Positions 31,364 to 47,863 are shown, counted from the stretch's first letter. The stretch is DNA of 58,777 nt from Promethearchaeota archaeon (GCA_016839915.1 JAEOTH010000074.1:1-58777), one strand, 5' to 3'. The notes: generated by a model not told the origin, from the letters alone. Translations and numbers: made by a program.

Positions 31364-34300
31364 TTGATCAATTTGATTAACTCGCCTAATTTAGATAGGC
31401 TAAAAAAATTATCTAATATGGATGATCCCATTGAGATAAATCAAATTTTCATTTATTTATTAAAAGAGTTACAAGCTTACCTAAAATTAGATGTAATCAA
31501 CAAAAAAGTAAAAATACATGTTGTTGATTATATAAATGAGAATAGAGATTCAGATTTTATAGTATATAATTACGGAGTGAATAGATCTATAATAAATGAT
31601 ATATATCATATTAGACTATTTAAAAATTATAAAAATCTCTTCCCTTTTCTATTACTTCAAAGTGCTTATCTAACTTTTATTCCTAATAGTTTAAAAGAAA
31701 CCATTTTCATTGATTTTGTTATTAATAAATTTGTTGAAATTGATTTGTTTGAATATAGCCTAGTTACAGAATGGGCATTGAATATAAAGAAAAAATATGT
31801 GAAGTATAATTTTGTGTCTGATAAATTCCGTTTTGACAAATTCCTTGAATTACAGGAAACAAAATCTATTGAAAGTCCAAAACAATTTTTCTTTGAATAT
31901 ATCCGGCGAAATTCAAACCTTAATTTTGATGATAATCCACATTTTCACTTAGATAAAATATATGAAGATTATTTGTTTAAATCTTCAAAAAATCTACAAA
32001 GTGATGAGATTACAGAGACATTAAGAATTTTAACAAAAATTTTCTACAGAATTAAAAACTGTGATACTTTGGAAGGATTCTGTAATTATTTTAATACTTT
32101 TAAAAAACAGGAAATCATCCAAACGGATTTAAGTTTACGGAAATTTAGAAAAAACATTCGTTGGATAAATAAATATAGTCATATTACCCCAACATATTAC
32201 TTTGATTGGAAATCAATTAATATAGCAATTATTACTTGCTATATGAAATTCAATCCACTTCTAGAGAAATCCAAAATTGATAAGATCATAAACCAAATGC
32301 CATTTCTAATTATGCCAAAACTTTCGATAACTAATTTTGCAGTAGAATTATCGGCATATTTTGTTATTCCAAGGGCTTATATCAAAGATCTGATATATAT
32401 GTTAGAAAAAATGGAGCGATATGGATATATAATCAAAAAATATTGTTCTTTAGCAAAAAAGTATGTTTTCTCGTTGAATCTAAATTATTTTAGAGAATCG
32501 TATAAAAAGGGGCAAATAATAAATCCTAATAATAACAATTACTCAAAAGATTTTGAACTCGAATTTATACAAAAATATAGCAAAAACTTTAATAAGGCAA
32601 ATCTAACACTTCTGGATTTTTTAATTTTAGATAGGATAAGATTTTTTTCTTATGTTGGAATAAACTTTTCGAGAAGAAGGGAAATTTCCAACATAATAAA
32701 ATCTGATTATTCTAATTTTATTATGAATGAAAATAGTACAATTGAGGAATTGGAGAATAATTTGAAGAATTTGATTGATTCTCCTAATCTCCGAAAAGAG
32801 TTCCTAAATTTATTAGAAAGATCTCAAATCTTTGGATTTTTCTATCTTAAAAATGAGTTGGAAAAATGGGTAAAATATTTCCATAGATTTGAAAAAGAAT
32901 CTAAAGATATTGACAGAATAAGTAGTTTTATTCAATTTAAAGAATTTTATGAGAAAGAGAATTTACTGCAAATAATCGATGAAAGTGGGATATCTGACAA
33001 TATAGATTCAAATTCTTATGCTTTCAAAAATCTCTTTCTGAATTATTTAAATTCTGGTGATAAATATACTAAAGAAGTTGAAAAACTCCAAACTTTTTCC
33101 GAATTTTTAAAGTTATGTTCTAATTTAAGAATATTTAGTATTAAATCAATTAAGAAATTAATTAACAATCCAAATCTATTGGTTATAATTACTGAAACAA
33201 AAAAATCTCGTTTAAAAAGTATAAAAAAGAATAATAAAACTTATGATATATCAAATAAGATAATTAATCTCAAGATAGATGATTTTATAAATAAAGATCC
33301 TAAGATAATTAGGCCTTATTTAATTGATAGCATCTGGACAAATACAATTGCAAACTATTTTCCTCAAATAATACTAAAAAATACACCTAAAGTAAGAGCT
33401 ACAATAAGGAAAATAAAGGATTATTTTCCTAAAAGTTATTTTTATGAAACAACAGATCTATTTAGCAGTCAAGAATTTATCTTTTTACAACTTTTTGTTC
33501 CATATTTGAATAATAACGAAAAAATTACATTTATTTCAATATTATCCTCGATTTTCAAAGAAAATATTATTTCTTTTAGACGATATTCTTGGGATGGTTT
33601 TTTACGTACTTTTTCAAGAAAAGACTTCTATGATTTTAATCAGAAAGAGTTTTTCTACACTAGAGATCTTTTTATCCAATACTTTCTTTACATTAAAGGA
33701 ATTTTGGGTGAAGAAGTAATACAATTTAAAGAAAAACCTATTAGCACAGTTAGATCTTGGTCGATAAAGGAAAATATGGCAAATCTTATAAAGAAAATCA
33801 ACAAAAGAATTAGATCTGAATCTATCAGTTTTAATACTAAAGATATTCAAAAATTATTACATTTTCACTTAAATCTTGAAAAATATTTTATAAATAAAGA
33901 AGAATTTGAAATATCGAAAAAAGAAAATTTCTTTAATCAATATATAAAATCAATAAAATTCTTTCCTGCTTTTCAAAATTTTGGATTAGAGCAAAATATT
34001 TTATATCTTACTCCTTTTGATTTACAAGATATAGATTTCAAATTACTCTTTACAAATACTTTTCAAAAAATAAAGAGTATAGCATCAGTTGATAATTCTA
34101 CTTCCTTGTTTATTAAATATTTATTTCCTTACAATAAACCCAACACATCATACCTTAATTGGTTGAGAAGTAAAAATAAAATTAGAGAATATTGCCTGCT
34201 TGGCATTAAATCTATATCTCAAATTTTCCATTTCAATCATAATTTAAGTTCAAATGGATGGTATCTAGATCCTAATAATTTTAATACTTATATCCAAAAC

Positions 34301-34996
34301 ATTCTTTTCAATCCAAATTATAAAGTTCCAACCTCAGAAAGAAAGTATTTTAATACGAGTGATTTAATAATTTCAGATTATTATAAACCTGATTCTTCCT
34401 ATTTTAAAGCTTTATTGCATTTATACAATTGGCATTCCATTGATATTAAGAAAAATATTAATATGATTAACCAAACTATCTTCGATGAGATTCAAGTTTT
34501 AATTAAGAACAAATTAATCTTTCCTTTTATTACTCCAAAAAATTTAGGTTTGAATGAAATTATTAATATTATTCTGTTGAATCTAAAAAAAGATACAATA
34601 GATGTAGTTAAAAGGATTTTTCAATTTTTTAATCTCAGTTTTGTTTACGAAATTGAAGGAGAGTATTATATTCATGGATTTCGTGAAAAGAAAAAGGTAT
34701 ATAATGGATTAATGATCAAACTTTATCTTCCAGATTGTGAACTTGCTGAATTTTTAAGGATTTTTGAATATATATTTCAATATTTAAAAGTTGAAAAATA
34801 TTTGATATTGACTGATTTGGTAAATAATGAATCTCTTATTAAATCAGTCTATGGAAATAAAATTTTTCTTAAAAAATATAATCCCTTAAAGAATTTAATA
34901 TGGAACACAAAAAATGAAATGTGGATGAACCATAAATTGTTTAGTAAAACTTTTGAATTTTTGTATCCTGAACTTATTTTCAAAGAAAAAGTATAA
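31364..34996 (+). CDS. Giant orphan protein, paralogue A
   Basis: A 1210-residue protein with no motif that I recognise and no signal peptide or membrane helix. It is clearly homologous along its whole length to the protein at 44243-47863. Shared stretches include 'GLMIKLYLPDC' near the C-terminus, 'YNPLKNLIWN', 'FSRKDFYD', 'YIRRN' and 'SLRKF'. It is rich in Lys/Ile/Phe/Asn and predicted mostly helical, with beta-rich patches near the C-terminus ('FVYEIEGEYYIHGF'). The start is TTG at 31364, giving an N-terminus similar in length to the paralogue's. It is single-copy in its transcription unit and may be an Asgard-specific family. Confidence 0.78.
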   Translation: MINLINSPNLDRLKKLSNMDDPIEINQIFIYLLKELQAYLKLDVINKKVKIHVVDYINENRDSDFIVYNYGVNRSIINDIYHIRLFKNYKNLFPFLLLQSAYLTFIPNSLKETIFIDFVINKFVEIDLFEYSLVTEWALNIKKKYVKYNFVSDKFRFDKFLELQETKSIESPKQFFFEYIRRNSNLNFDDNPHFHLDKIYEDYLFKSSKNLQSDEITETLRILTKIFYRIKNCDTLEGFCNYFNTFKKQEIIQTDLSLRKFRKNIRWINKYSHITPTYYFDWKSINIAIITCYMKFNPLLEKSKIDKIINQMPFLIMPKLSITNFAVELSAYFVIPRAYIKDLIYMLEKMERYGYIIKKYCSLAKKYVFSLNLNYFRESYKKGQIINPNNNNYSKDFELEFIQKYSKNFNKANLTLLDFLILDRIRFFSYVGINFSRRREISNIIKSDYSNFIMNENSTIEELENNLKNLIDSPNLRKEFLNLLERSQIFGFFYLKNELEKWVKYFHRFEKESKDIDRISSFIQFKEFYEKENLLQIIDESGISDNIDSNSYAFKNLFLNYLNSGDKYTKEVEKLQTFSEFLKLCSNLRIFSIKSIKKLINNPNLLVIITETKKSRLKSIKKNNKTYDISNKIINLKIDDFINKDPKIIRPYLIDSIWTNTIANYFPQIILKNTPKVRATIRKIKDYFPKSYFYETTDLFSSQEFIFLQLFVPYLNNNEKITFISILSSIFKENIISFRRYSWDGFLRTFSRKDFYDFNQKEFFYTRDLFIQYFLYIKGILGEEVIQFKEKPISTVRSWSIKENMANLIKKINKRIRSESISFNTKDIQKLLHFHLNLEKYFINKEEFEISKKENFFNQYIKSIKFFPAFQNFGLEQNILYLTPFDLQDIDFKLLFTNTFQKIKSIASVDNSTSLFIKYLFPYNKPNTSYLNWLRSKNKIREYCLLGIKSISQIFHFNHNLSSNGWYLDPNNFNTYIQNILFNPNYKVPTSERKYFNTSDLIISDYYKPDSSYFKALLHLYNWHSIDIKKNINMINQTIFDEIQVLIKNKLIFPFITPKNLGLNEIINIILLNLKKDTIDVVKRIFQFFNLSFVYEIEGEYYIHGFREKKKVYNGLMIKLYLPDCELAEFLRIFEYIFQYLKVEKYLILTDLVNNESLIKSVYGNKIFLKKYNPLKNLIWNTKNEMWMNHKLFSKTFEFLYPELIFKEKV

Positions 34997-35122
34997 AATG
35001 ACCGAATTTTAGAACCCTATATATTTTTCATATTACCTTATTTTATTTACTTTTTTGATCCCATCAATTTGATTTTTCTATAGTGTTTATAGGTATGCTA
35101 AGATAAATTAATTTTACGAAAG

Positions 35123-35177
35123 ATTTATAAAGGCAAAATTATATTAAAGATTTTTAGTTTATTTATAAAGACAAAAT
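35123..35177. repeat. Short direct repeat upstream of the nuclease gene
   Basis: ATTTATAAAGGCAAAAT (35123-35139) recurs as ATTTATAAAGACAAAAT (35161-35177) with one mismatch and 38-base spacing. It lies in the 400-base gap between the giant orphan gene and the nuclease gene. Each copy contains a TATA-like TTTATAAAG, so it may mark tandem promoters or a regulator site. No gene is seen in 34997-35395. Confidence 0.35.
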
Positions 35178-35395
35178 CGCTTGAATAAAAAATATATAAA
35201 TTTATAAACTTTAATGATTATTTATCTAAAGAGGAAAGAAAAAGATTAATATCATGGATTTTAAAGTGAAAATTGCTACCAAAAAATGAATAAAATAATG
35301 ACTCTATTACAAAAAATAGATTATAATTTCATTATTTGATAAAATTTTTTGTTTAAAATCGAGTAACAGAAGAATTATAAGATGTATGGGATTAT

Positions 35396-36844
35396 ATGAA
35401 AAAAGATAATAATAAAAGGAATCATATTAATGGTGAGAATTATTGTGGTTTAAATAACTTCAAAGGTCGCCATTTTAATTATTACGAATCGAATAATTCG
35501 ATTTTTTTTCGAATTAGCACCCCAAATTTGGGTTTAAAACCTATTTGTTCAAATCTCAGTGAAATAGAAAAACAAAAAATTAGAAATTATGTAATAGATT
35601 TATTGGGAAATGACCCAGTAAATTGTTATAAAGACATTATTTATGATGAGAGCTTTGGATCATTACGAGCAATTTCATATCGGTTAGGAATTTCAAGACC
35701 AACTCTTAGGGCTTATATTTCATCTTGGTTGGAAATATTATATGGAAAAAAAGCAGTTGAAAGAATTATTAAATTATTTTGGCCTGAAAATTCAGCTAAA
35801 CAAAGGGAAAAAATAAGATTTTATGAAATAATTGAAAAACATATTAGACTATATCCTGAAAGAACCTCTTTAATCCCAACTAGGAATAACCTATTAGACG
35901 GTGAATTGCGAGGATTACTAAGTAAAAATACATTTAAACCATGGGTTATAGATTATCTTACTCAGATTAAATGTAATAGTCTTGATGAATCACATGCGAT
36001 TTATGATATAATATGGGGAAAGAATTGTGCTAAAAGAAAAAAAATTGAATATGAAGATATTAAAGACTTCGTTCATCAACGAAATCATGGAAAAGCACGC
36101 GTTTTAACTCTGAAATTCGCTTTTGAATTAATGACCGAATATCCAACTGATAGATATGTGAAAATCTCATGCGGAGAAGGGCACAAGTTTCCAATTCAAG
36201 TGAAAAAATTGATATATGATTATAACTGGTGTCCATATTGTAATGAATATTTTTGTGAAAGATTGATGAGGAATTATTTAGAACAGTTATTCAATACGAA
36301 ATTTGAAGCTCAAATGAGACTAGAAAAAGCTTGTGGAATTGATAGAGAAGAAATTATTGTTCAAACTATAAATTTTAATGGAATTCAATATAGAATTCGT
36401 GTTTTCGTTGGTCAATTAAGATACGATCATTTTTCTCCCAATGTTTGCATTGTAGGAAATAATAGAGTCAAATATAAATATGCTGTAGCTGGAGAATATG
36501 ATGGTTTTCATCATGATGAAGAAAATCTAGGAAAAAACCCTTTCTGTGATAATCTAGAGGATTTTGCCACAATAAATGCGAGAGATTCTGTTAAAAATAA
36601 AGTTTCATATGAAAAAAAAGTAATTTTAATTCGATTAAAAGAAAAGGATGGTTTCGATCGAAAAAAATTGTCATCAAACCAAAAAGAAGTAATACAGGAA
36701 ATTATTCGGCAATTCAATAAGCAAGTTAGAGATTTATTTAGTTTCCATGATGTACGATTAAAATATGATCCATACATTAAATTTAATCCTTTAGGAGAAG
36801 ATGGACCATATAGAACCAAAGGATCTTTGGATGACTTCCTATAA
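35396..36844 (+). CDS. HTH + zinc ribbon + PD-(D/E)XK (Vsr-like) nuclease
   Basis: A 482-residue protein with three recognisable parts. Residues about 88-112 form a helix-turn-helix ('LRAISYRLGISRPTLRAYI'). Residues about 258-285 give a treble-clef/zinc-ribbon ('CGEGHKFPIQVKKL' followed by 'WCPYCNEYFCERLMRNYLE'). Residues about 340-430 carry nuclease-like motifs 'AGEYDGFHHDEENLG', then 'NARDSVKNKV' and 'KKVILIRLKE'. The order C-G-H, CxxC, E-x-D-G, D..K is that of Vsr-like endonucleases seen in many viral and archaeal proteins. Substrate unknown; it may cleave DNA in repair or defence. It has no methylase neighbour, so it is not a classical restriction pair. Confidence 0.72.
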   Translation: MKKDNNKRNHINGENYCGLNNFKGRHFNYYESNNSIFFRISTPNLGLKPICSNLSEIEKQKIRNYVIDLLGNDPVNCYKDIIYDESFGSLRAISYRLGISRPTLRAYISSWLEILYGKKAVERIIKLFWPENSAKQREKIRFYEIIEKHIRLYPERTSLIPTRNNLLDGELRGLLSKNTFKPWVIDYLTQIKCNSLDESHAIYDIIWGKNCAKRKKIEYEDIKDFVHQRNHGKARVLTLKFAFELMTEYPTDRYVKISCGEGHKFPIQVKKLIYDYNWCPYCNEYFCERLMRNYLEQLFNTKFEAQMRLEKACGIDREEIIVQTINFNGIQYRIRVFVGQLRYDHFSPNVCIVGNNRVKYKYAVAGEYDGFHHDEENLGKNPFCDNLEDFATINARDSVKNKVSYEKKVILIRLKEKDGFDRKKLSSNQKEVIQEIIRQFNKQVRDLFSFHDVRLKYDPYIKFNPLGEDGPYRTKGSLDDFL

Positions 36845-36965
36845 ATATAAATGGGGTTTTTATATTTCAAATTGTCAAAAAATTTTTTAGTTATATTTTA
36901 TTTAAATTATTCAATCAAACCGTACTATGATAAAAAATTTTAAAATTTAATACTAATCTTTAAAT

Positions 36966-37082
36966 GGGAAAGCAGCTTGGGAGAGAGGATTCTTTTATTC
37001 GAAGCATCTCTTCAATGGCTTAGCCTGGTATAGCGCACGGCTGATAACCGTGAGGTCGGGGGTTCGAAGCCCCCCTTTCCCA
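36966..37082 (+). tRNA. tRNA-Ile (GAT) with an intron in the D-stem
   Basis: Acceptor GGGAAAG/CTTTCCC, anticodon arm CACGG-CTGATAA-CCGTG (anticodon GAT) and T-arm GGGGGTTCGAAGCCCCC are complete. The 5' part of the D-arm is split: GCTT occurs at 36975-36978 and again at 37018-37021, followed by AGCCTGGTATAGC. About 43 extra nucleotides lie between, with ambiguous ends owing to the GCTT repeat. Within them AGAGA/TCTCT and TTGG/TCAA can pair, extending across the exon AAGC/GCTT, as expected for an archaeal splicing helix. CCA is not encoded. Confidence 0.88.
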
Positions 37083-37147
37083 CTTATTAGATAAACATAC
37101 TCCAATTATTATATTTTACCTTTTACCCTCATAAACATATATAATTT

Positions 37148-38038
37148 TTATTTCAAATATGCTTCATTTGCTTTAATATATCTTTTACAAAACCAACCAA
37201 TAAAGATCATATCATCTTCTTTTATATTTGCATTTTCTAAAGCATTATAATAGCTCTGTCTAATTTTATATTCAATATCAAACATAGGATATTTATTCTT
37301 AAATAGGATGCAATTCATAAGAATTCTGCACATTCTCCCATTTCCATCTCCAAAAGGATGAATTGAAACAAATCTATAATGCATCATACATGCTAGAAAA
37401 ACAGGATGTAATATTTTTTTATTTTCATCATACCATTTTAGGAGATCATCCAAAAGGTATTCTACTCCACCCATTGGAGGAACATATTTACTTCTACTTA
37501 TTTGAACTGGATATTGTCTTATAATTCCTGCAATTTCTGGTTTTGTTAGTTCAAAAATTTTTTCATGCCAATCTAAAATTAATTCCCAATCAATCTCATC
37601 TTTACTGCTAATCATTTCTTCATAGACATTCATATGGGATTTTGCCTCAATTATATCGTGTGTGGGTTTTTTGATTGGAACATTTGGTTCATCAACAACT
37701 AAAGCAACTTCATGTAAGGTTAAGGTTGATCCTTCAATTCTATTTGTATTATGAGTAAATCTAACTCCAAAAGTCCTTAAATCTTTTACTTGTATTGGTT
37801 TTGGCAATGCATTAAATCTTTCTCGATATTTTTTAGTCATTTGTTCTATCATAGGCATCCAGCGTTTCTGGAATATTTCATAACAAAACTCTTCTTTAAT
37901 GCGAGCTAACTTTTCGTATTCCGGAAGTTCCTTCCCGATTGCCTTTGATATATTATTCACTTTTGCATTCTCTCGATAAGAATAAGAAAGATAATGATAT
38001 TCTTTTCCTCTTATTTTTTTTTTTATCATATTTACCAT
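37148..38038 (-). CDS. Fic-domain protein (AMPylase) with inhibitory motif
   Basis: A 296-residue Fic protein. The active-site loop HPFGDGNGR is at about residues 231-239. The upstream inhibitory helix '(S/T)xxxE(G/N)' is seen as 'TNRIEGS' at about 97-103, so it belongs to the class carrying the inhibitory element in the same chain. Fic enzymes transfer AMP (or other nucleotide) to Ser/Thr/Tyr of a target. The N-terminal about 60 residues may contain a dimer or HTH segment. Four copies of a TGTAGAGATAA-type site in and upstream of its promoter (38048-38152) suggest autoregulation or a cognate repressor. No antitoxin gene is adjacent. Confidence 0.92.
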   Translation of the reverse strand: MVNMIKKKIRGKEYHYLSYSYRENAKVNNISKAIGKELPEYEKLARIKEEFCYEIFQKRWMPMIEQMTKKYRERFNALPKPIQVKDLRTFGVRFTHNTNRIEGSTLTLHEVALVVDEPNVPIKKPTHDIIEAKSHMNVYEEMISSKDEIDWELILDWHEKIFELTKPEIAGIIRQYPVQISRSKYVPPMGGVEYLLDDLLKWYDENKKILHPVFLACMMHYRFVSIHPFGDGNGRMCRILMNCILFKNKYPMFDIEYKIRQSYYNALENANIKEDDMIFIGWFCKRYIKANEAYLK

Positions 38039-38047
38039 AATTAAAAA

Positions 38048-38152
38048 TTATCTCTACAAATATATAAATCTATGGCTCTAAGTGAACTTTGTAGAGATAA
38101 TTATCTCTACATCTCAATGAAATTATATTTTTTTATTAAAATGTAGAGAAAT
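38048..38152. promoter_or_regulatory. Operator with repeated TGTAGAGATAA half-sites
   Basis: TTATCTCTACA (38048-38058), TGTAGAGATAA (38090-38100) directly joined to its inverse TTATCTCTACA (38101-38111), and TGTAGAGAAAT (38142-38152). The central pair is a perfect 22-bp palindrome. The leftmost half-site lies between a TATA-like TTTATATATT (minus strand, 38059-38068) and the Fic ATG, at the expected transcription start. The rightmost lies toward the divergent AK6 gene. A dimeric repressor binding all sites would control fic and perhaps the divergent unit. Confidence 0.7.
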
Positions 38153-38242
38153 ATTAATAATCGAGATATCTCAGTTGATTACCTTAAATTCAATTATGTT
38201 CATTCACTTTTTTAATTATCATTCTCTATTATATATTTAGAA

Positions 38243-38836
38243 ATGAAAAATATCATTATCTCCGGAACACCTGGTTGCGGGAAAACGTCGGTAGCAAAAG
38301 AAATCTCTAATTTAATTAAGACTAAAATAATTTCCTTGAATGAATTAGCAATTTCGGATGAATTTTCATTTGAATATGATAAAGAAAGAAAAACTTATAT
38401 TGTAGATTTTGAAATATTTCTACCTTATATCATAAATAGGATTGAAGATATTAAACAAGAGAGTCTACCATACTTGATAGTAGAAAGCCATTTCTCAGAT
38501 ATTATTCCAGAAAAATTTATTGATTATGTATTTATTTTAAGATGTGATCCGGATGAATTATTCAAAAGATTAGAAAAAAAAAATTATGATAAAAAAAAAA
38601 TTACTGAAAACATTCAAGCAGAAATTCTAGGCAATTGTGTCAATTATTTTATTCAGAAGCAGATAAAAGCACCCATTTTTGAAATCAACACGACAAATAC
38701 TAATATTGAAACTGTAGCACGAACAATCGTTAAAATTGTAGTTGAAAATAATAACGGAGAAAATTATAAGATTGGAAAAGTTGATTGGCTTGAAAAGTTA
38801 TTTGAAGAGAATCGTTTAAAAGAATTTTTTGGTTAA
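38243..38836 (+). CDS. AK6/Fap7-type adenylate kinase/ATPase
   Basis: A 197-residue P-loop kinase: Walker A ISGTPGCGKTS (residues 6-16), a lid/NMP region with 'RCDPDELFKRLEKKNYDKKKITENIQAEI' and 'EINTTNTNIET' near the C-terminus. This is the archaeal relative of Fap7/AK6 (hCINAP), which acts in late 40S maturation in eukaryotes and in archaeal ribosome biogenesis. It heads a tight rightward operon with tgtA (27 nt), DUF371 (5 nt) and trm5 (4 nt), a set of RNA-maturation genes. An ATG start close to a TATA-like TATATATTT fits a leaderless start. Confidence 0.9.
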   Translation: MKNIIISGTPGCGKTSVAKEISNLIKTKIISLNELAISDEFSFEYDKERKTYIVDFEIFLPYIINRIEDIKQESLPYLIVESHFSDIIPEKFIDYVFILRCDPDELFKRLEKKNYDKKKITENIQAEILGNCVNYFIQKQIKAPIFEINTTNTNIETVARTIVKIVVENNNGENYKIGKVDWLEKLFEENRLKEFFG

Positions 38837-38863
38837 GAAATATAAATTCTTAAAGGAAATCAA

Positions 38864-40510
38864 ATGAAGTATGAAATTCTAGACATTGACGCTCTAGGCA
38901 GAATAGGAAAACTAGAAGTTAATAATAAGCAGATGATTACCCCTAATCTTTTTCCTGTAGTCCATCCTTTTAAAAATGTAATTCCTCCTTCGGTTTTAAA
39001 AAGTTTTGGTGCTCAAGCGATTTTTACGAATGCTTACATTCTTTTTCAAAATGAGACTATAAAAGAAAGCCTTTTAAAGAAAAAGATTCACAAATTTCTT
39101 GATTTTGATGGCCTTATTGCCACGGATAGTGGAGCATTTCAGCAATATATGTATAACAAATCTAATGTGAAGATTGAAGCTAAAGAGATCGAATTGTTCC
39201 AAGAAACTATTGAATCAGATTTTCCCGTGATCCTTGATCTTCCAGTACAACCAGGTGATACATATGAAATAGCAAAAACTAAGGTTGATGCCACTATCAA
39301 TCGGGCAAAAGATAATGCTAAAAGGCGATCCAATGAAAATTGTGCATGGTTTGGCCCAATTCATGGAGGTAAATACCAAGATCTTTTAATAAAATGTATT
39401 AATGAGATGGATAAACTAGATTTTGGTGTCTATGCGATAGGAGGACTTGTAAAATCTTTTCTTGATTACAGGTTTGATGTCGCTATTCAAACTTTATTGA
39501 ATGTGAAAAAAAACATAAACCCAAATAAACCATTACATATGTTTGGGTTAGGCTTACCTCAGTTTTTTTCTTTAGCTGTCGCATTTGGTTGCGATTTAAT
39601 GGATTCTGCAGCATATATCTTATATGCTAAAGAAAATCGGTATTTCACATTGTCTACAGGTACAAAAAATCTTGAGGATTTAATAGAATTTCCATGCCAC
39701 TGCCCAATTTGTACAGAATTTAGCCCAAGTGAATTGAAGAAATATGAAGATAATTTGCGAATTAAACTCTTAGCAAAACATAACTTATATATTTCATTTT
39801 CAGAATTAAAAACGATTAGGCAAGCAATAAGAGAGGGAAATTTATGGGAACTAGTTGATCAACGTATAAGAGCACACCCCACTTTAGTTAAAGCGGCTCG
39901 TATCTTAAAGAAGGAATATAGTACGTTTGAGGTTTATGAAAAAATTTATAAGAAACATGGACGAATGTTTGTTTCCTCTGAAAATATCTATAGACCATTG
40001 ATAAATAGATATGAAAAAAGAATTAAAATAAACTATCGGGTTCCAAAAGATGTAAAATTTTTAATTATTTTGCCTGAATTAGAGGCTAGAGGAGAAAATT
40101 CTCCAACAATTCAAACCTGGCTTGAAGAAATAAAGGATAATAAAATCATCCCTCGTAAAAACATACATATTGTGTTTAATTCTTCCTATTTTGGAATAAT
40201 TCCACTTGAATTAATAAATACCTATCCAATGGGGCAATTTGAATCTATCACAGCTACAGAAGAAAATCATCAACTTTATGTGAATTCAATAGAGAAATCA
40301 AGTAATTTCATTAATCAAAACTATAAAGAGTACAAAAAATGTGGAGTGTTAATTCCTGATAAATATTTAAATCAGTTTAATGAAGTTGTAGAATTTAATG
40401 ATGTCAATCCTATTCATGGATTAAAACCTATTTTGAGATCTAAATTTCAATTAAATTTCTCTGTTTTTACAAATTTGAATGAATTGTTAGAATTTTTTAG
40501 AGATGATTAA
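38864..40510 (+). CDS. tgtA: Archaeosine tRNA-guanine transglycosylase (TgtA)
   Basis: A 548-residue enzyme that exchanges guanine 15 in the tRNA D-loop for preQ0 as first step to archaeosine. Catalytic 'ATDSGAFQQY' with its aspartate (about 87), the second aspartate region 'VILDLPVQPGD', 'FGLGLPQFFSLAVAFGCDLMDSAAY' (about 227-250, listed in pieces) and zinc ligands 'CHCPIC' (about 275-280) are present. The C-terminal domain (about 395-548) matches the archaeosine-TGT C-terminal region, but I see no clear PUA domain, which may be encoded elsewhere. Second gene of the AK6-TgtA-DUF371-Trm5 operon. Confidence 0.94.
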   Translation: MKYEILDIDALGRIGKLEVNNKQMITPNLFPVVHPFKNVIPPSVLKSFGAQAIFTNAYILFQNETIKESLLKKKIHKFLDFDGLIATDSGAFQQYMYNKSNVKIEAKEIELFQETIESDFPVILDLPVQPGDTYEIAKTKVDATINRAKDNAKRRSNENCAWFGPIHGGKYQDLLIKCINEMDKLDFGVYAIGGLVKSFLDYRFDVAIQTLLNVKKNINPNKPLHMFGLGLPQFFSLAVAFGCDLMDSAAYILYAKENRYFTLSTGTKNLEDLIEFPCHCPICTEFSPSELKKYEDNLRIKLLAKHNLYISFSELKTIRQAIREGNLWELVDQRIRAHPTLVKAARILKKEYSTFEVYEKIYKKHGRMFVSSENIYRPLINRYEKRIKINYRVPKDVKFLIILPELEARGENSPTIQTWLEEIKDNKIIPRKNIHIVFNSSYFGIIPLELINTYPMGQFESITATEENHQLYVNSIEKSSNFINQNYKEYKKCGVLIPDKYLNQFNEVVEFNDVNPIHGLKPILRSKFQLNFSVFTNLNELLEFFRDD

Positions 40511-40515
40511 AGGAT

Positions 40516-40935
40516 ATGGTGATATTAGAAACTGTTTCTGCTTATGGACACGAAAATATTCTATGCACACATCGTACCACTATAGAAATCACCAAAGTGA
40601 AAACCTTAACAAAAAACGGGAATTGTGTTATTGGAATTAATGCTTCAAAAAGCTGCTATGATTTAAATTATGATTTAAAAAAAAAAATTCAAGATGGCAG
40701 TAACATAAAAGTAACTTTAATGTTGGGAAATCTTCAAGATTCCTTTTTTGGTTTTGGGAGTAAAAAATTAAGATTATTAAATAGAAATGATATGGTTTTT
40801 CGTAAAAGTAATTTTGTCTGTAACAGAACAGTCCTGATAAATTGCACTAAATCATCAAATGATATAAAACGTGAACTAATTGAGAAACTAAAAGATCCAG
40901 GAAAAAAATTATCAATAATATTTGAAATAAATTAG
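40516..40935 (+). CDS. DUF371-like protein
   Basis: A 139-residue protein with the archaeal DUF371 pattern: 'GHENILCTHRTTIEITKVKTLT', split here as 'GHENILCTHRTTIE' then 'LTKNGNCVIGINASK', and 'LGNLQDSFFGFGS'. The biochemical role is unknown. The ATG at 40516 is 5 nt after the tgtA stop and its own stop is 4 nt from trm5, so it is co-expressed with tRNA modification enzymes. An RNA-related role is a plausible inference. Confidence 0.8.
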   Translation: MVILETVSAYGHENILCTHRTTIEITKVKTLTKNGNCVIGINASKSCYDLNYDLKKKIQDGSNIKVTLMLGNLQDSFFGFGSKKLRLLNRNDMVFRKSNFVCNRTVLINCTKSSNDIKRELIEKLKDPGKKLSIIFEIN

Positions 40936-40939
40936 AGAA

Positions 40940-42103
40940 ATGAGAATCGATAACAAGTCTGAAATACAATATTTTAAATTGAAAATGGAGGATGGGCAGG
41001 CTTTCATTAATTTTTTAAAAAAAAAATTCAAAAACACCCAAATTATTAACCAAAAATACAAACTTTTGCATGAAAATGAATATATATTATTTCCATTTGT
41101 TAAAAACCAAGTTCTCATCGATAAAGTAGTGGCTTTAGTAGATAAAGAATTCAATTTTGAATTAATATCCAAAGAAGGAATAATCAATGAAAATTATAAA
41201 TATAGAACACTTCAAGAAGCTTTAAAGGGTAAACTTCCAGAAAAATATTTTGATATGATTCCAAAGGCTTATGATATTGTTGGAAGTATAGCAATTATTG
41301 AATTTGATAAGTTTAATTATATAAATAATAAATTAATCAATGAATATAAGCAGAAAATCGCTAAAGCGGTATCAGACGTAAATAAAAATATTAAAACTGT
41401 TTATGAGAAAAAGAGCCAAATAAAAGGAAAATACCGCTTACGAGATTTAGCGGTTTTATTTGGTGATGATAAATCAAAGACTATTCATAAAGAAAATGAT
41501 TGTTTTTTTAAGCTTGACGTTAAAAATACATACTTCTCTCCAAGATTAGTTTTTGAAAGACGGAGAATCGCTTCAAGTGAAATTAAGGAGAATGAGTTAA
41601 TTATTGATATGTTTGCTGGAGTTGGAACATTCTCTATTCAAATTGCGAAAAATAATAATGTTAAAATTTATGCCTTTGATATTAACCCTAATGCTTATGA
41701 ATATCTGAAAAAAAACGTGGAACTGAATACCTCCTTAAAAGGAGAAATATCTCCAAACAACATGGATGTTAAAGATCTTCTTAAACCTAAAAATCAATTA
41801 GGTCATCTTCTAAAAAACAAAGCAGATAGAATAATCATGAATTTACCTGAAGACTCAATCAAATTTATTGATGTAGCTTGCTCCTTAATGAAAGAATCTG
41901 AAGGAACTTTACATTTTTACCAATTCTCAGAAAAACCAAACCCTATAGAAAAGACTTTAGAGAACCTTGAAAAAGAACTAAGTTCTTTTAATTGGGAGAT
42001 CAAGTCTATGATTAATTCTAAAATAGTAAAGCATTATTCACCAAAAGCAGAATTAGTAGTTATAGATTCAAAAATAAAAGCTTTAAAAAAAGAGCGGACC
42101 TAG
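40940..42103 (+). CDS. trm5: tRNA (guanine-37-N1) methyltransferase (Trm5)
   Basis: A 387-residue class I methyltransferase of the TRM5/TYW2 type. An N-terminal region (about 1-90) leads to the D2 domain with 'LPEKYFDMIPKAYDIVGSIAII' pieces, and SAM-binding motif I 'DMFAGVGTFSIQ' (about 230-241), 'YAFDINPNAYEYL' and the catalytic NLPE (about 289-292). Trm5 forms m1G37, needed for frame maintenance. Last gene of the AK6-tgtA-DUF371 operon. Its last three codons (42095-42103) lie inside the convergent tRNA-Arg gene's acceptor stem, an overlap that must tolerate both constraints. Confidence 0.9.
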   Translation: MRIDNKSEIQYFKLKMEDGQAFINFLKKKFKNTQIINQKYKLLHENEYILFPFVKNQVLIDKVVALVDKEFNFELISKEGIINENYKYRTLQEALKGKLPEKYFDMIPKAYDIVGSIAIIEFDKFNYINNKLINEYKQKIAKAVSDVNKNIKTVYEKKSQIKGKYRLRDLAVLFGDDKSKTIHKENDCFFKLDVKNTYFSPRLVFERRRIASSEIKENELIIDMFAGVGTFSIQIAKNNNVKIYAFDINPNAYEYLKKNVELNTSLKGEISPNNMDVKDLLKPKNQLGHLLKNKADRIIMNLPEDSIKFIDVACSLMKESEGTLHFYQFSEKPNPIEKTLENLEKELSSFNWEIKSMINSKIVKHYSPKAELVVIDSKIKALKKERT

Positions 42104-42169
42104 CAGGATTCGAACCTGCGACTTTTGGATTAGAAGTCCAACGCCCTATCCAGGCTAGGCTATAGGTCC
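42095..42169 (-). tRNA. tRNA-Arg (TCT)
   Basis: On the minus strand: acceptor GGACCTA/TAGGTCC, D-arm GCCTAGCCTGGATAGGGC, anticodon arm TTGGA-CTTCTAA-TCCAA (anticodon TCT) and T-arm GCAGGTTCGAATCCTGC. It has no intron, unlike the two other tRNAs in the window, and CCA is not encoded. It converges on trm5, whose stop codon TAG lies within its 3' acceptor strand. Confidence 0.96.
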
Positions 42170-42283
42170 ATTTTTTTCTGTTTTTAATATCTTATAGTTA
42201 TAAAAATATCTTATATGATGTTTAAATTTTATGACCTTGAAAAATATGTAGGAATTTAAATAGAGAATTATAGAATCTTTTTC

Positions 42284-42409
42284 ATGTATTTTCATAATTT
42301 ACTTTACTTAGAATGCCCTTTTTGTAAATTTTATATAGAGGTTGATTCAAACTTTACTTTTTGTCATATTTGTGGTGGAAATCTATGCTTTGCCGAAAAA
42401 ACAAGGTGA
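42284..42409 (+). CDS. 41-residue zinc-ribbon protein
   Basis: An ATG-started 41-residue ORF with 'LECPFCKFYIEVDSNFTFCHICGG', given here in parts: CPFC (residues about 11-14) and CHIC (about 27-30), spaced as in zinc ribbons. A TATA-like AATTTAAATAG lies about 30 bases upstream. The paired CxxC pattern is unlikely by chance in such an AT-rich region, so I think it is real. Function unknown. No other gene is seen in 42170-42600. Confidence 0.6.
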   Translation: MYFHNLLYLECPFCKFYIEVDSNFTFCHICGGNLCFAEKTR

Positions 42410-42600
42410 ATTTCTGAAGAATAGACAAAAAACAGTTTAATACATAATTACAAATTGTACCAGATCAACCAATTACTGAGTTCAGATTTTTCTTGAAATG
42501 TATTCTATTTACTTTAAAGTAAATAATGTGTCAAATAATTGTACTTTATAAATTCAGAAAAACAAAGATTGTCAGTGTTAATGATTCGAGAGATGCATGA

Positions 42601-43848
42601 ATGAAACAATTAAAATATAAAACTAAATTGGAAGACAAAAATATTATTAAATCTTCTGAGATTAAAGAGTTCTCCGAAAAACAAAAATTCAATTATATCG
42701 GCTTTTTTGTTGTATATTTTACTTTAAGTTCTATAACTTCTTATCTTACAGTTTATCTACCTGTTTATTTACTAAGCATTTTAAACGTAAATAGAAGTGA
42801 ACTTGCCTTTATACAAGTTTTTTCTTTTTCAGTGTTATTTATTGCTCCTGTATTGGGTATTATCTTCGATAAATATACTCGTTATAAAAAAATCATTATA
42901 AATTTATCTATTTTTATATTTCTATTTAGCTCTTTAGCCACGTTACTTTCTGGTTCGATTTTGCGCATCTTTGGATTATTTCTAGCAATAAATCTCCTCA
43001 GTCATGAAATAATCAAGGTAGGTATGAGTAGAATTCTTATTGAGTCTTCTACAAATGAGATAATTAAAGATAGAAACTTGATTGTGATCAATATTTCTTC
43101 AAATATCGGAGGATTTATCCCTTCAATTATCTTTTTACTTGCAATTATAGATGTTTTTAATTCATATTTATGGAATAATTTTTTTTTACTAGGGGGTTTT
43201 TTGTTGATGCCCATGGTAATTGCGATTTTTTGCTTCGATAACAAAGATGTTATTCAAGAAAAAATTGAAATACAAGAACTTCGGGAAAATAATAATAATT
43301 TCCCCTATTATCAGATTCTTTTTTTAACTCTTTCATTTATAATGATATGGAGCGATAAACTATATTTATATCCATTTACCTCCTGGATTTTATCTAAATT
43401 TGGGCAAATTGGATTAAAAGTCTTATCCTCTAGTTATGGAATTTTCCTTATACTAAACACTTTAGGATATATTGTAGGACAAAAAATATCAAAGAAATTC
43501 CAAAGAAGGAACATAATTCTCATTATGAACTGCTTATTCATTGGTTTAATAATTCTCATGGCATTTTCTAATTTATTCTTTCTAATAGTAGTATATGCGC
43601 TAAACTGGTTTGTATCTGGAATAATGCTTTTAAATTATACGTCCTTAATAATTTCCATTTCCAAAAATGTGAAATATCAAACAGTCTCATACCAGATGCT
43701 TAGGTTTGCTGTAGCAATAGCTAGTGTGTTATTCATACCCTTGGGGACTTTTTTATCTTCTTTCATCTCTACAGAATTTTTAATTATAATAGCTGGGCTA
43801 TTTTCGGTTTTATCTCTTATACCACTAATTTTTACTAAAGAAATTTAA
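42601..43848 (+). CDS. Major facilitator superfamily transporter
   Basis: A 415-residue membrane protein with 12 predicted helices in two six-helix halves joined by a charged central loop (about 210-235). The typical loop 2-3 motif appears as 'GIIFDKYTRYKK' (about 90-101), close to the MFS 'GxxxDrxGrr'. N-terminal 30 residues are cytosolic and basic. Substrate unknown. ATG start; the transcript would run into the hairpin/poly-T region at 43881-43913 only on the opposite strand. Confidence 0.82.
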   Translation: MKQLKYKTKLEDKNIIKSSEIKEFSEKQKFNYIGFFVVYFTLSSITSYLTVYLPVYLLSILNVNRSELAFIQVFSFSVLFIAPVLGIIFDKYTRYKKIIINLSIFIFLFSSLATLLSGSILRIFGLFLAINLLSHEIIKVGMSRILIESSTNEIIKDRNLIVINISSNIGGFIPSIIFLLAIIDVFNSYLWNNFFLLGGFLLMPMVIAIFCFDNKDVIQEKIEIQELRENNNNFPYYQILFLTLSFIMIWSDKLYLYPFTSWILSKFGQIGLKVLSSSYGIFLILNTLGYIVGQKISKKFQRRNIILIMNCLFIGLIILMAFSNLFFLIVVYALNWFVSGIMLLNYTSLIISISKNVKYQTVSYQMLRFAVAIASVLFIPLGTFLSSFISTEFLIIIAGLFSVLSLIPLIFTKEI

Positions 43849-43882
43849 ATAAGTTTCAATTATGGTTGAGTTCTTTTTGAAT

Positions 43883-43913
43883 AAAAAAAAAAAAATAGAT
43901 TCCGCAGAGCGGA
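43883..43913 (-). terminator. Intrinsic-type terminator: hairpin followed by T13
   Basis: On the minus strand TCCGC-TCT-GCGGA (43901-43913) is a 5-bp GC-rich stem, followed by ATCTA and a run of 13 T (43883-43895). It begins right after the TAA of the 11-codon ORF at 43914-43949 and fits termination of a short leftward transcript. On the plus strand the order is wrong for a terminator of the MFS gene. Confidence 0.7.
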
Positions 43914-43949
43914 TTATTTTGTTGGTGGTTCACCAAAACTGCCTGGCAT
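43914..43949 (-). CDS. 11-residue peptide gene (MPGSFGEPPTK)
   Basis: ATG 43949 has a strong ribosome-binding site GGAGG (43958-43962) 8 nt upstream, followed by 11 codons, TAA, and immediately the terminator hairpin at 43901-43913. A TTG at 43964 could extend it to 16 residues. A TTTAAATAAAC box near 44041-44053 (minus strand) could be its promoter, giving a transcript of about 150 nt. It may encode a micropeptide or be a small RNA. It diverges from the giant orphan B gene starting at 44243. No other gene is visible in 43849-44242. Confidence 0.45.
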   Translation of the reverse strand: MPGSFGEPPTK

Positions 43950-44242
43950 CTGATTTTCCTCCAAAATTTAATTATTCCTATAAGAGTAATCCGTTTCTAT
44001 ATTTTCAATACGTGTCAAGCTATCAATAATATTTAATCAATTGTTTATTTAAACACCTCAAAAAATAAAATAAAATTAGTAGAGTTTTTATAATTAAATT
44101 ATGGAAAAAATCAAGTAATATTTCTTGAAAAGAAATTACCTTTATGGAATATTTTAATCGAATAAATTCTATCAAAAAATATAATATTTAGATAATTTAA
44201 TATTTAAATCAATAAGTGACTAGGTAAATAATAATACTTTAA

Positions 44243-47200
44243 ATGACAAAATTAAATATTGAGTTTCTCATAAGCACTTCAATAGATCACATAATTTTAA
44301 ATATTGATACTGTTTTTGAACATCTTCTCCAAGAAATCAGATCTTACCTTAATTTAGATTTCATTTATTCACAGATCAAAATCAATTTTTGTGAGGATGT
44401 TATTAAATATAATACTAAAAAAGAAGATATCTTTAATATTGGTGTAAGAAAGACTCAAAAGAATAATTTTCTAATAATTTATTTTTCTAGTTATTATAAA
44501 AAATTCGCAAGAATAATCTTGTTACGTGAAGCGTATAAAATCTTTATTCCATCTGAATTACAAGAGAAGGAAATTATTAATATTTTTATTAATCAAAAAA
44601 TAGAAATAGATCTTGAAAATTCAGAATATATTGAAGATTGGAAAGAATTTAAGAGAAAAAGACTCATAAATTATGATTTTATGGAAGCTGAATTTGATCG
44701 ATTAGAACATTTTCTCAAACAGGAAAGTAAAGAAATTCAACTAAGCCCTTTTCAGTTTTTCTTCTCTTACATAAGAAGAAATATTGATTTGATTGAAGGC
44801 AATGAGAAACAGTTCTTCACTTTAGAAAAGAAGGGCTTTTATGACAAAATATTTAAAGATTATACGCTTAAATACACAGATTATCCTGACGAAATGCTAG
44901 AAACAATAAGAATTATCAAAGAAATTTTTTATAACGTGAAAAGTTATTACTCTTTATTAGATTACCAACATTATTTTCAAAAATTTAAAGAATCTGGGGC
45001 TATTAAAACTTATTTAAGTCTTAGGAAATTTACAGAAAATATGCAATGGATTAAAAATAATACTAATATTGCCCCTACCTATCAAATTAATTGGTATACA
45101 CTAGGTCTTGTATCGATATTATGTTTTATGAAATTTCACCCCTTAATTGAGGTTGCAAAAATCTTCGATATAATTAAAAAAATACCCTTTTTTACAATTC
45201 CGGCTTTTTCAAAATTTAATTTTGGAATAGAAGTTACTGGTTATTTTATACTTCCTGAAATATATAAAAATGATCTTAATAGTTTTCTTGAGAAATTGGA
45301 AACAGAAGGATATCTTATTGAAAAGAAATTATTTATTATTGAAAGTTCAGCTTATACCACTAATTTAAACCGTGTGACAAGTAAAAATATTATTCTCAAT
45401 CCTAATAGAAAAGGATATAAAAAGCAATATGAAAATTACTTTAGCATGGATTACAAGATTGGGAGTTTCGATTCACATCTCTCTCTTCTTGATTGGTTTT
45501 TAATTGATAGAATTCGTTATTTTTCAATAACAGGATTGGGATTTGAAAGAAAATCTGAAACCCTATACAAGTTAAAATCAGATCTTCTCAATGAAATTGA
45601 GAGTCAACGTAAATTAATTAATGAAATTAAAGAAAATATAAATCAAGTAAATAAAAAACCTGAACTTAAAAATCGGATTTTAAATTTTATAAATAAAAAT
45701 CAATCTTATGGTTTTTTCCATATTAAACAAAAGGTTACTGATTACACAAATATCTTGGATTTAATAGATAATATAATAGATAGATATCCCTCAATTAATT
45801 CTTACTTTCTATTTCAAGATTTTGTTAGGAAGCAGGGGATTTCAAAAAATATTGGCGATAATATTTTACTAAACAATTTTAAAAAGAATGTATTACGAGA
45901 TTTATTCTCCTTATCTATTCGTTCTAAAAAGAACTTAGAAGATTTTAAAGAAGATTATCGCGTTTTCTCCAATATATTCAAATCTTTTTATGATCTCAAG
46001 ATATTTGATTTAAAAGCAATTAAATCAATTATCAAAGATAACTCCCTAATACAAAAAATATATCATTCCAAACAAGAAAAGTTACAAACATCATATGAAA
46101 GTTACAAAATCTATAAAATAACACATAAACTAATTGAAAAGAGATTAGAAGATTTTTTAAATAACCAACCTCCTGTTATCCAACCACACTTATTAAATTC
46201 AATTATGATAATTTCACATATCATTAAATTTTATCCTTTGTTAATATTAAAGGATACTTTACAAACACGAGAAAGCATTGAAAAAATAAAGTGGCTGTTT
46301 CCTAGAGTTATAATTGTAGAATTGTCGGAATATAAAACCCTGGAAAAACACATATACATAAGACTCCAAATGCCTAATCTAAAGTTAAAAAAAAAACGGT
46401 TATTATTCTCAATTTTCTATAATCTCTTCAAAAAGAATTTAATAATTTGTAAATCTTATCTTTACAGTGGTTTTTTAGAGGCTTTTTCAAGGAAAGATTT
46501 CTATGATTTAGAACGAGAGGATTTTTTTTATACAAAAGACTTATTTAAGCAATTCTACCTTTATGTACAAAAAAAAATAAATAAAGAAGTGGAACCGATT
46601 TCTGATTTGTCAAGTACTCCTTTAGGAAATCTATGGGCAAATCAAAAATTCATTTTTTCGCTTATTAATAAGGTTGATAATCGTATTTATATAGAACATT
46701 TTGACCTTAATTTTAGCAATCTCAGTAAATTATTGGAATATAACAAAAATCTAGATAGAATCTTATTTGACTTAAATAGATTTAAGATTTCAAAAAATGA
46801 AAATTTTTTTAAAAATTATATCAAAGCGATAAATTTTATCCCATCGTTTCAATCTTTTGGATTTGGGCAATATTTTGTATATTTTTACCCTAAAGATTTA
46901 AATCAAATAGATTTTAAACATTTCTTGCACAATTCATTCCAAAAAATAAAATATTTGGCAACTATAGATAAATCCAATTCTTTTTTGATTAATTTCTTAT
47001 GGCCATACAGAAATCCAAATATTTCATTATTAAATTGGTTAACTAAATCTAAAAAAGCCATCCAAGAATATTGTTTATACTTCATTAAGAGGGTTCTTCA
47101 AATTTTCCATTTTAATTATAATCTTAGTACTAATGAATGGGATTTAGATTCAAATCGGTTTAAAATTTATTTTCAAAATGTTCTATTTAATCCAGATTAT

Positions 47201-47863
47201 AAAGTTAGAGTTCCTGAACTAAAAGAATTCAATATAGGGGATCTAAACATTTCAGACAATTTACTCCCAAATTCATCCGAATTTCAAGCCTTAACCAGAT
47301 TATATAGTTGGAAATCAATTGATATTAAATCGTATTTAGGAACACGAAACTATACAGTTATTAATCAAATAATTGAATTATTAGAAAAAAAATTGATATT
47401 TCCAGTAATCTCCTTAAAAAATCTCGATTTAAAGGAAAAGATTTATATTATTTTACCAAATGTGAAAAAAGAACATAATAATGTAATCATTAATATCTTT
47501 AGTTTTTTTAATATCGGTTTTATCTATGAAATTGAAGGAGAATACTACATTCAAGGATTTCCTGAAGAGATTAGATTTGAAAATGGATTAATGATTAAAC
47601 TTTATCTTCCTGATTGCCAACTAGATGAACTTGAAGTTTTATTTGATCTAATATTTGAATATCTAAAAATCGAGCATTATATTATATTGAATGATCTGGT
47701 TGATGGAAAAGATTTCCTTAAATCGATTTACGGGAATTTAGATTTTTTGAAATCATATAATCCATTAAAAAATTTAATTTGGAATAGTACAGATAAAAAA
47801 TGGAAGAATTATAAACTGTTTACTAATAAGTTTGAAAAAATTTATCCTCCTTTAGGAGGATAA
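44243..47863 (+). CDS. Giant orphan protein, paralogue B
   Basis: A 1206-residue soluble protein homologous to the one at 31364-34996 from end to end. Conserved stretches are 'GLMIKLYLPDC', 'SYNPLKNLIWN', 'FSRKDFYDL', 'FSYIRRN', 'YLSLRKF' and 'YEIEGEYYIQGF'. No catalytic motif, membrane helix or signal is visible. Charged helical segments dominate, with a coiled stretch around residues 445-475. ATG start. A perfect 9-bp hairpin (47842-47863) includes its final codons and stop. The two copies, about 10 kb apart and well diverged, suggest an old duplication and maintained function. Confidence 0.78.
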   Translation: MTKLNIEFLISTSIDHIILNIDTVFEHLLQEIRSYLNLDFIYSQIKINFCEDVIKYNTKKEDIFNIGVRKTQKNNFLIIYFSSYYKKFARIILLREAYKIFIPSELQEKEIINIFINQKIEIDLENSEYIEDWKEFKRKRLINYDFMEAEFDRLEHFLKQESKEIQLSPFQFFFSYIRRNIDLIEGNEKQFFTLEKKGFYDKIFKDYTLKYTDYPDEMLETIRIIKEIFYNVKSYYSLLDYQHYFQKFKESGAIKTYLSLRKFTENMQWIKNNTNIAPTYQINWYTLGLVSILCFMKFHPLIEVAKIFDIIKKIPFFTIPAFSKFNFGIEVTGYFILPEIYKNDLNSFLEKLETEGYLIEKKLFIIESSAYTTNLNRVTSKNIILNPNRKGYKKQYENYFSMDYKIGSFDSHLSLLDWFLIDRIRYFSITGLGFERKSETLYKLKSDLLNEIESQRKLINEIKENINQVNKKPELKNRILNFINKNQSYGFFHIKQKVTDYTNILDLIDNIIDRYPSINSYFLFQDFVRKQGISKNIGDNILLNNFKKNVLRDLFSLSIRSKKNLEDFKEDYRVFSNIFKSFYDLKIFDLKAIKSIIKDNSLIQKIYHSKQEKLQTSYESYKIYKITHKLIEKRLEDFLNNQPPVIQPHLLNSIMIISHIIKFYPLLILKDTLQTRESIEKIKWLFPRVIIVELSEYKTLEKHIYIRLQMPNLKLKKKRLLFSIFYNLFKKNLIICKSYLYSGFLEAFSRKDFYDLEREDFFYTKDLFKQFYLYVQKKINKEVEPISDLSSTPLGNLWANQKFIFSLINKVDNRIYIEHFDLNFSNLSKLLEYNKNLDRILFDLNRFKISKNENFFKNYIKAINFIPSFQSFGFGQYFVYFYPKDLNQIDFKHFLHNSFQKIKYLATIDKSNSFLINFLWPYRNPNISLLNWLTKSKKAIQEYCLYFIKRVLQIFHFNYNLSTNEWDLDSNRFKIYFQNVLFNPDYKVRVPELKEFNIGDLNISDNLLPNSSEFQALTRLYSWKSIDIKSYLGTRNYTVINQIIELLEKKLIFPVISLKNLDLKEKIYIILPNVKKEHNNVIINIFSFFNIGFIYEIEGEYYIQGFPEEIRFENGLMIKLYLPDCQLDELEVLFDLIFEYLKIEHYIILNDLVDGKDFLKSIYGNLDFLKSYNPLKNLIWNSTDKKWKNYKLFTNKFEKIYPPLGG
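47842..47863. terminator. Perfect hairpin overlapping the stop codon of orphan B
   Basis: TTATCCTCC (47842-47850) and GGAGGATAA (47855-47863) form a 9-bp stem with a TTTA loop; the stop codon TAA is the last part of the stem. There is no T-run after it, so a terminator function is uncertain; it could protect or process the mRNA 3' end. The arms encode the C-terminal 'YPPLGG'. Confidence 0.4.

Follow-up and report, generated by a model that had tools for sequence, protein, structure and literature searches.

The 58,777-nucleotide stretch of DNA analyzed here (the window; Promethearchaeota archaeon, GCA_016839915.1 JAEOTH010000074.1:1-58777) is one entire contig of a 3.65-Mb assembly, and it carries the only two copies in that assembly of a gene for a huge uncharacterized protein, which we call FAM. 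The FAM proteins constitute an undescribed family. Beside copy 1 lies a short gene, PEP, which on sequence grounds is a real gene and a member of a new family, for probably secreted peptides, that is skipped by normal gene calling. FAM and peptide genes are physically linked, and the two have moved together between loci as a cassette. The C-terminal part of FAM is predicted to have an Lrp-like fold, and the linkage of the two genes hints, short of proof, at peptide signalling between Lokiarchaea.

The FAM family in Lokiarchaeota

A sequence-only reading of the window had described two full-length, well diverged paralogs of 1210 and 1206 residues, and both open reading frames (ORFs) are present at the positions it gave (Table 1). 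Their products, P0001 (copy 1) and P0002 (copy 2), align from end to end with 41% identity (E 3e-254), and the strings GLMIKLYLPDC and YNPLKNLIWN, which it had singled out, are found in both. No match better than chance was obtained when the two proteins were compared with Pfam, NCBIfam, PHROG, PADLOC and PDB sequences, in agreement with its claim that they carry no known domain. The best PADLOC model was BrxC, at E 0.0044 over 70 residues of copy 2 only, with none for copy 1, and among 33 FAM members NCBIfam gave weak LysM matches in two (best E 0.0045). Family library scans returned no transposase match and the Pfam scan no TPR family match, the C-terminal modules of the predicted structure being alpha/beta. 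No FAM relatives were found among the viral contigs and plasmids searched. Nearly all full-length members are about 1170-1225 residues long, which supports the proposal of an undescribed family of maintained size. The interpretation attached to that proposal fared less well: a defensive role is unsupported, given that there is no PADLOC match, no virus or plasmid relative and no consistent defence neighbour, and a structural role is unsupported as well.

FAM is confined almost wholly to one Lokiarchaeota family. Protein searches, followed by a 36-row profile run on whole genomes, detected it in 58 of the 65 genomes from the family to which the host belongs; the class contributed 18 other genomes, all without a match. 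When a profile of the C-terminal third was run on 228 genomes of the phylum, a single weak match appeared outside the family (G066, E 1.5e-4). In a second family, a fragment of a very diverged relative was spotted through its neighborhood in genome G076 (hmmsearch E 2e-18 against one sequence). All named relatives come from Lokiarchaeota or Lokiarchaeia metagenome-assembled genomes.

Copy number varies between genomes, as had been guessed, from zero to three full copies, and several genomes hold broken remnants or copies with internal stops. Relatives at loci L035 (8780-12436) and L059 (7622-11212) carry in-frame stop codons and many short remnants occur elsewhere, so FAM genes are evidently also being lost. 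In the tree, the clade of P0001 is distant from P0002 and each is closest to copies from other genomes; the duplication therefore predates the species. At loci L091 and L103 the last 160 residues of otherwise diverged FAM proteins are near-identical while the preceding parts differ, a pattern that reads as gene conversion or recombination.

An overlooked peptide gene linked to FAM

The FAM genes had been described as stand-alone, which proved wrong. Copy 1 has a 38-codon gene, absent from the listed genes, 240 bp upstream and transcribed divergently from it, and copy 2 is preceded, at about 395 bp, by a gene for a major facilitator superfamily (MFS) transporter. Both neighbors, the peptide gene next to FAM and the recurrent MFS gene, had been missed, and they are the best functional clues. 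The PEP product (LKLFKVYRILLFVLIGLASFLPLIGFVLGDHKGSGGGP) has a charged N-terminus, a hydrophobic core and a short Gly-rich tail with a GGGP end, and by inspection its leader looks signal-like. When the DNA of close relatives of copy 1 was compared, conservation was found to start about 430-510 bp upstream of FAM and to stop at the FAM 3' end, with differing flanks. Within the upstream conserved part, a divergent ORF of 37-38 codons with a TTG start is kept in six relatives and duplicated in two. A reverse-transcribed or guide-RNA element, suggested by the conserved 5' region and many 3'-terminal fragments, was rejected because the 5' conservation corresponds to the peptide gene and N-terminal fragments exist too.

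Eleven seed peptides supplied a first profile, with which 1.03 Mb of FAM-bearing loci were searched in six-frame translation. This profile found seven new peptide loci (E < 0.3), and all seven lie within 2.3 kb of FAM, a zone that takes up 32% of the bases (0.32^7, about 3e-4). A match in the window at 35453-35533 (E 0.28) was treated as chance; it lies on the opposite strand inside a 482-aa ORF and has no tail. Peptide genes at FAM loci either precede FAM in divergent orientation or follow it in the same direction. Two or three stand in tandem at some loci and there are none at others; no peptide gene is recognizable at the copy 2 locus. The precursors are 36-40 aa long, and their tails (for example FPGHAGGP, FPGGEGGP, FPGSQGGP, YFPGGGTP and IPGCGEAAP) mostly terminate in Pro and have no consistent Cys, Ser or Thr.

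Genome-wide, a 26-row profile identified 62 convincing peptide genes. Their carriers are some 30 genomes of the family plus G076, which has four copies and is the one clear case outside the family; G068 gave a weak match. Of the 58 peptide genes in the family, 22 (from 13 genomes, that of the window among them) are no more than 1.5 kb from FAM, against a chance expectation of about 0.25% each; this count is inflated since the first seeds were picked at FAM loci, and the linkage far exceeds such inflation. The diverged FAM C-terminus of G076 is 3 kb from one of its peptide genes.

Selection acts on the peptides. In G022, G035 and G076, three unlinked copies each encode identical or near-identical peptides, with a proportion of synonymous differences (pS) of 0.58-0.62 and a ratio of nonsynonymous to synonymous differences (pN/pS) of 0.03-0.07; in G022 the three products are identical over all 38 residues (pS 0.60, pN/pS 0.03). 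DNA similarity among the unlinked copies is limited to the ORF plus a few flanking bases. The fact that the peptides are identical despite synonymous divergence indicates that the peptide is made and that its exact sequence matters. The ORFs are preceded by Shine-Dalgarno-like (GGAAGTGA) and TATA-like (TTTAAATA) stretches. The genes beside these copies (L195-L198 and L203-L205) are unrelated to one another and include an AIR synthase-like gene, a HEAT-repeat protein, a GH38 mannosidase and a dehydrogenase.

The two genes also move together. The PEP and FAM blocks of locus L032 in G010 and locus L033 in G013 are 92.6% identical over 4140 bp at unrelated loci. The corresponding figure for most of the backbone that can be aligned between G010 and G013 is about 80-86%, which points to recent movement of the cassette by transfer or transposition. 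No convincing terminal inverted repeats were seen at the cassette ends and no transposase was found. At L033 the cassette adjoins an apparently complete leucyl-tRNA synthetase gene, and on its other side lies a broken 3' part of the same gene. The leucyl-tRNA synthetase locus repeatedly hosts FAM or peptide genes (L033 5072-13812, L222 3894-7014, L034 7461-8000).

A small hydrophobic precursor, joint movement with FAM, patchy occurrence and many broken FAM copies are also what a toxin-immunity or bacteriocin-like pair could display. In that case the peptide would attack competitor membranes, FAM, with or without the MFS pump, would protect the producer, and the cassette would be a selfish addiction unit. 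However, an immunity protein of 1200 aa would be extraordinary, and the conserved tails are Gly/Pro-rich and non-amphipathic. Moreover, peptide genes often have no FAM nearby, which addiction logic forbids unless FAM acts in trans. We give this explanation little chance.

Predicted fold and candidate function

An AlphaFold model of copy 2 residues 8-1206, made with 33 relatives, reached a predicted local distance difference test score (pLDDT) of 83 and a predicted template-modelling score (pTM) of 0.84; for the last 430 residues pTM was 0.88. The model opens with an alpha/beta domain at the N-terminus; thereafter, on either side of a long helical stretch, helices followed by a beta-alpha-beta-beta-alpha-beta arrangement occur about four times, and in the C-terminal half this is a winged helix joined to a RAM-type beta-alpha-beta-beta-alpha-beta unit. 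The four putative modules, when compared by hhalign, gave no internal repeat, so the repeats are proposed from the predicted structure. In Foldseek searches against the PDB, the full model retrieved two NirDL entries at the top (E 4e-4 and 6e-4, probability 1.00) and several Lrp/AsnC regulators at E near 1. The C-terminal 430 residues again retrieved NirDL first (E 5e-7 and 3e-6, probability 1.00). In NirDL two units of AsnC type are fused (PMC4835899). The model thus assigns an Lrp-like fold to the C-terminal part of FAM, and it is only this C-terminal third that matches a common fold confidently; no such match extends over most of the protein. A viral fold library gave no match below E 0.01. 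Inspection by eye shows an AsnC-like helix-turn-helix stretch in the last unit, and YEIEGEYYI at the place of the VTGEYD of AsnC proteins; formal sequence tests were not significant. In the model FAM resembles Lrp/AsnC proteins and NirDL/AhbAB in its winged-helix and ferredoxin-like units, the C-terminal two being in tandem as in NirDL. It differs from them in combining, within a single chain, about four units with an N-terminal domain and a long helical segment, in having no detectable sequence relationship to them, and in lacking a conserved catalytic His.

Across 33 sequences, the conserved FAM columns are mainly aromatic, Pro, Gly, Asn, Lys and acidic, and no His, Cys or catalytic-type Ser column is 90% conserved. 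We read this as the mark of a protein that binds or regulates, and not of an enzyme. The place of NirDL at the top of both Foldseek searches, together with weaker matches to the haem-binding alpha+beta barrels HemQ and OxdB, could instead point to a tetrapyrrole (siroheme or haem) enzyme or carrier. Siroheme decarboxylases employ a conserved haem-liganding histidine of the barrel, on strand beta-2 (PMC4835899), and the lack of a conserved His in FAM weighs against a haem enzyme; no haem-pathway neighbors were seen either, and a tetrapyrrole role as a whole is extremely improbable.

Our leading reading, put forward tentatively and at somewhat less than an even chance, is that FAM is an intracellular receptor or regulator for a secreted peptide encoded beside it. 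The proposal is drawn from a secreted-looking, sequence-maintained, multi-copy peptide beside a large, cytosolic-looking and regulator-like protein, with species-specific tails and with precursors that are tandem or absent, as in Firmicute pheromone systems. The tails are alike among copies of one genome and different between genera, as expected for specific signals. FAM would be a large soluble protein consisting mostly of repeated winged-helix and ferredoxin-like units as in Lrp/AsnC regulators. The precursor would be exported and cut behind its hydrophobic leader to leave about 8-10 residues; the peptide would then be re-imported and bound by FAM, and peptide-bound FAM might switch the divergent promoter plus other targets. 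The mode would be like that of streptococcal Rgg-SHP or Bacillus Rap-Phr, without relatedness to them. Secretion, cleavage, uptake, binding and regulation are all steps that we infer. Where the peptide gene is lacking, as at copy 2, FAM could sense a peptide from elsewhere or another ligand, and the MFS transporter could move the peptide or be the regulated output.

The likeness to the RRNPPA systems of Firmicutes (Rgg-SHP, Rap-Phr, PlcR-PapR and AimR-AimP) begins with a short precursor that has a charged start and a hydrophobic leader (PMC13361665, PMC9765709). In both cases the precursor gene is divergent from, or just downstream of, the gene of a cytosolic-looking partner (within 1.5 kb in the 13 genomes noted above), a tail of about 8-10 residues varies between species, there may be several precursor genes or none, and one precursor can be made from more than one locus. 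FAM loci with tandem peptide genes and those without any have their counterparts in the 'chatterers' and 'eavesdroppers' of RRNPPA systems (PMC9765709). Unlike RRNPPA receptors, FAM has no TPR repeats, is about 3-4 times larger and belongs to an archaeal host, and no Opp or PptAB homologue was seen beside it.

Several observations weigh against a receptor. Among the 62 peptide genes, 39 are away from FAM, beside varied housekeeping-type genes and with no common neighbor, and in about half of the genomes with FAM no peptide gene could be detected, among them those that have copy-2-like FAM only. The peptides of the copy-1 clade are weakly constrained (pN/pS 0.59), which is compatible with diversification or relaxation. 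The leader is invariant among the G022 copies, though a pheromone leader could vary. No conserved peptide importer or protease was found beside the PEP-FAM pair. The Lrp-like assignment has its own difficulties: TM-scores between FAM and NirDL are low (0.33-0.44), with units packed differently, so the match is one of unit order and fold and not of packing. In addition, hhalign of FAM against Lokiarchaeal AsnC-type proteins gave 4% probability at best, and no Pfam AsnC family (HTH_AsnC or AsnC_trans_reg) was found in P0001, P0002 or 33 C-terminal halves.

The transporter suggests a different arrangement. Of 71 members of the MFS protein's family, 30, from 28 genomes, are found no more than 1.5 kb from FAM, in several gene neighborhoods and both orientations; FAM loci mostly have either a peptide gene or an MFS gene, and both occur within about 4 kb only in G022 and G035. 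FAM could regulate the neighboring efflux pump, or metabolism, by sensing a small molecule through ferredoxin-like units in the manner of ordinary Lrp/AsnC proteins, and the peptide would be a separate small secreted protein that shares the divergent promoter in some lineages. The Lrp-like fold and the reach of the MFS association (28 genomes, against 13 with adjacent peptide genes) favor this. It leaves unexplained that PEP and FAM form a single mobile unit, that peptide genes occur on either side of FAM and that the two co-occur in G076, and we consider it improbable.

Maturation of the type found for ribosomally synthesized and post-translationally modified peptides (RiPPs) is likewise unlikely. 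Here FAM would modify the peptide or bind its leader, with the winged helices as leader-recognition elements, and the MFS protein would export the modified product. As in RiPP clusters of the YcaO, radical SAM and ThiF types, a small precursor stands beside a large protein and an MFS exporter, the precursors are short with conserved leaders, and an MFS neighbor is found in 28 genomes. At L049 (5380-7149) the sole YcaO cyclodehydratase of genome G016 directly adjoins FAM near an MFS gene, at L048 a radical SAM gene with a B12-binding domain lies between two peptide genes, and at L066 a ThiF-GNAT fusion adjoins FAM. However, each modification gene occurs in one or few genomes and none accompanies the pair consistently. 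With 35-61 radical SAM genes in each genome, nearness to a few loci is about what chance would give, and YcaO is present in one of six genomes checked. The tails have no consistent Cys, Ser or Thr, as noted, and FAM has no conserved catalytic-type residues. A general RiPP reading from these neighbors was found to be unsupported when they were counted against the genome background.

Other genes in the window and significance of the pair

Table 1. Features of the window and approximate parts of the FAM copy 2 protein.
Feature	Position	Strand	Description and basis
PEP + FAM cassette	30936..34984		about 4.1 kb; common to copies at other loci, both flanks differing; window-L033 alignment
PEP	31007..31123	-	38 codons, TTG start, LKLFKVYRILLFVLIGLASFLPLIGFVLGDHKGSGGGP; sequence; profile match E 1.1e-11 genome-wide
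PEP-FAM divergent intergenic region	31124..31363		240 bp; kept in relatives with both genes; alignment of six relatives
FAM copy 1 (P0001)	31364..34996	+	1210 aa, TTG start
Protein of no known family	35396..36844	+	482 aa; downstream of FAM copy 1
Fic protein gene	37148-38038		PF02661 E 3e-18
MFS transporter	42601..43848	+	415 aa; PF07690 E 9e-13; recurrent neighbor of FAM genes without peptide gene
FAM copy 2 (P0002)	44243..47863	+	1206 aa, ATG start
Probable membrane protein (cluster c16)	47938..48768	-	276 aa; relatives near FAM, MFS and PEP; membrane location read from relatives' sequence
PD-(D/E)XK nuclease-like	49017-49745		PF12705 E 2.7e-4, just under cut-off; nearest nuclease-like match in window
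FAM N-domain	P0002 1-190		approximate; AlphaFold
FAM module 1	P0002 238-403		approximate; secondary structure of model only
FAM long helical part	P0002 415-617		approximate; AlphaFold
FAM module 2	P0002 590-738		approximate; secondary structure of model only
FAM module 3	P0002 804-955		approximate; model and Foldseek
FAM module 4	P0002 1012-1154		approximate; model and Foldseek
FAM C-terminal tail	P0002 1155-1206		approximate; AlphaFold

The association of the c16 membrane protein with FAM, MFS and PEP is weaker than that between MFS and FAM. The 482-aa protein is probably not part of the system, since its position is common to one relative only (L032). The sequence-only reading had placed the FAM genes in an accessory-looking stretch with a Fic protein and a Vsr-like nuclease. 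The Fic gene is there, and library scans of the window proteins gave no match to a Vsr family. The stretch is not simply accessory, as tRNA-modification genes lie between the copies. In several genomes this block (38243-42103; kinase-like, TGT, DUF371, TRM5/TYW2) has been turned round with respect to the DNA on both sides, usually beside FAM. Between G010 and G013 it is 66% identical, against 80-86% for neighboring DNA, which suggests exchange. Two overlapping ORFs of 800 and 768 aa (50153-52555 and 52537-54843, both on the minus strand) match no Pfam, NCBIfam, PHROG or PADLOC family; the pair recurs near FAM in L046, and the 800-aa ORF in L061 too. In three genomes of one genus (L065-L067), a DNA N6/N4-methyltransferase gene (PF01555) follows FAM by 35-51 bp.

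The PEP/FAM pair is new as a system built from a known fold, and the libraries searched contain no described family that matches either the protein or the peptide. We call it new because FAM lacks both sequence membership of Lrp/AsnC and the TPR repeats that mark RRNPPA receptors. Firmicutes are known to signal with peptides that cytosolic receptors detect; the literature searched turned up nothing of the kind for Asgard archaea, where absence from that literature is not proof. A fuller picture is less likely than not: Lokiarchaea would practise pherotype signalling, with a giant receptor of four Lrp-like units sensing a secreted peptide some ten residues long, and the cassette would spread between genomes. 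Whatever the function, two linked unannotated families are now defined, a 1200-aa protein present in most genomes of its family and an overlooked peptide gene. If the signalling reading is true, this would be the first peptide-pheromone system of Asgard archaea known to us, and a signal-receptor pair would be the first cell-to-cell language open to testing among the closest archaeal relatives of eukaryotes, its peptides being already named and within reach of synthesis.

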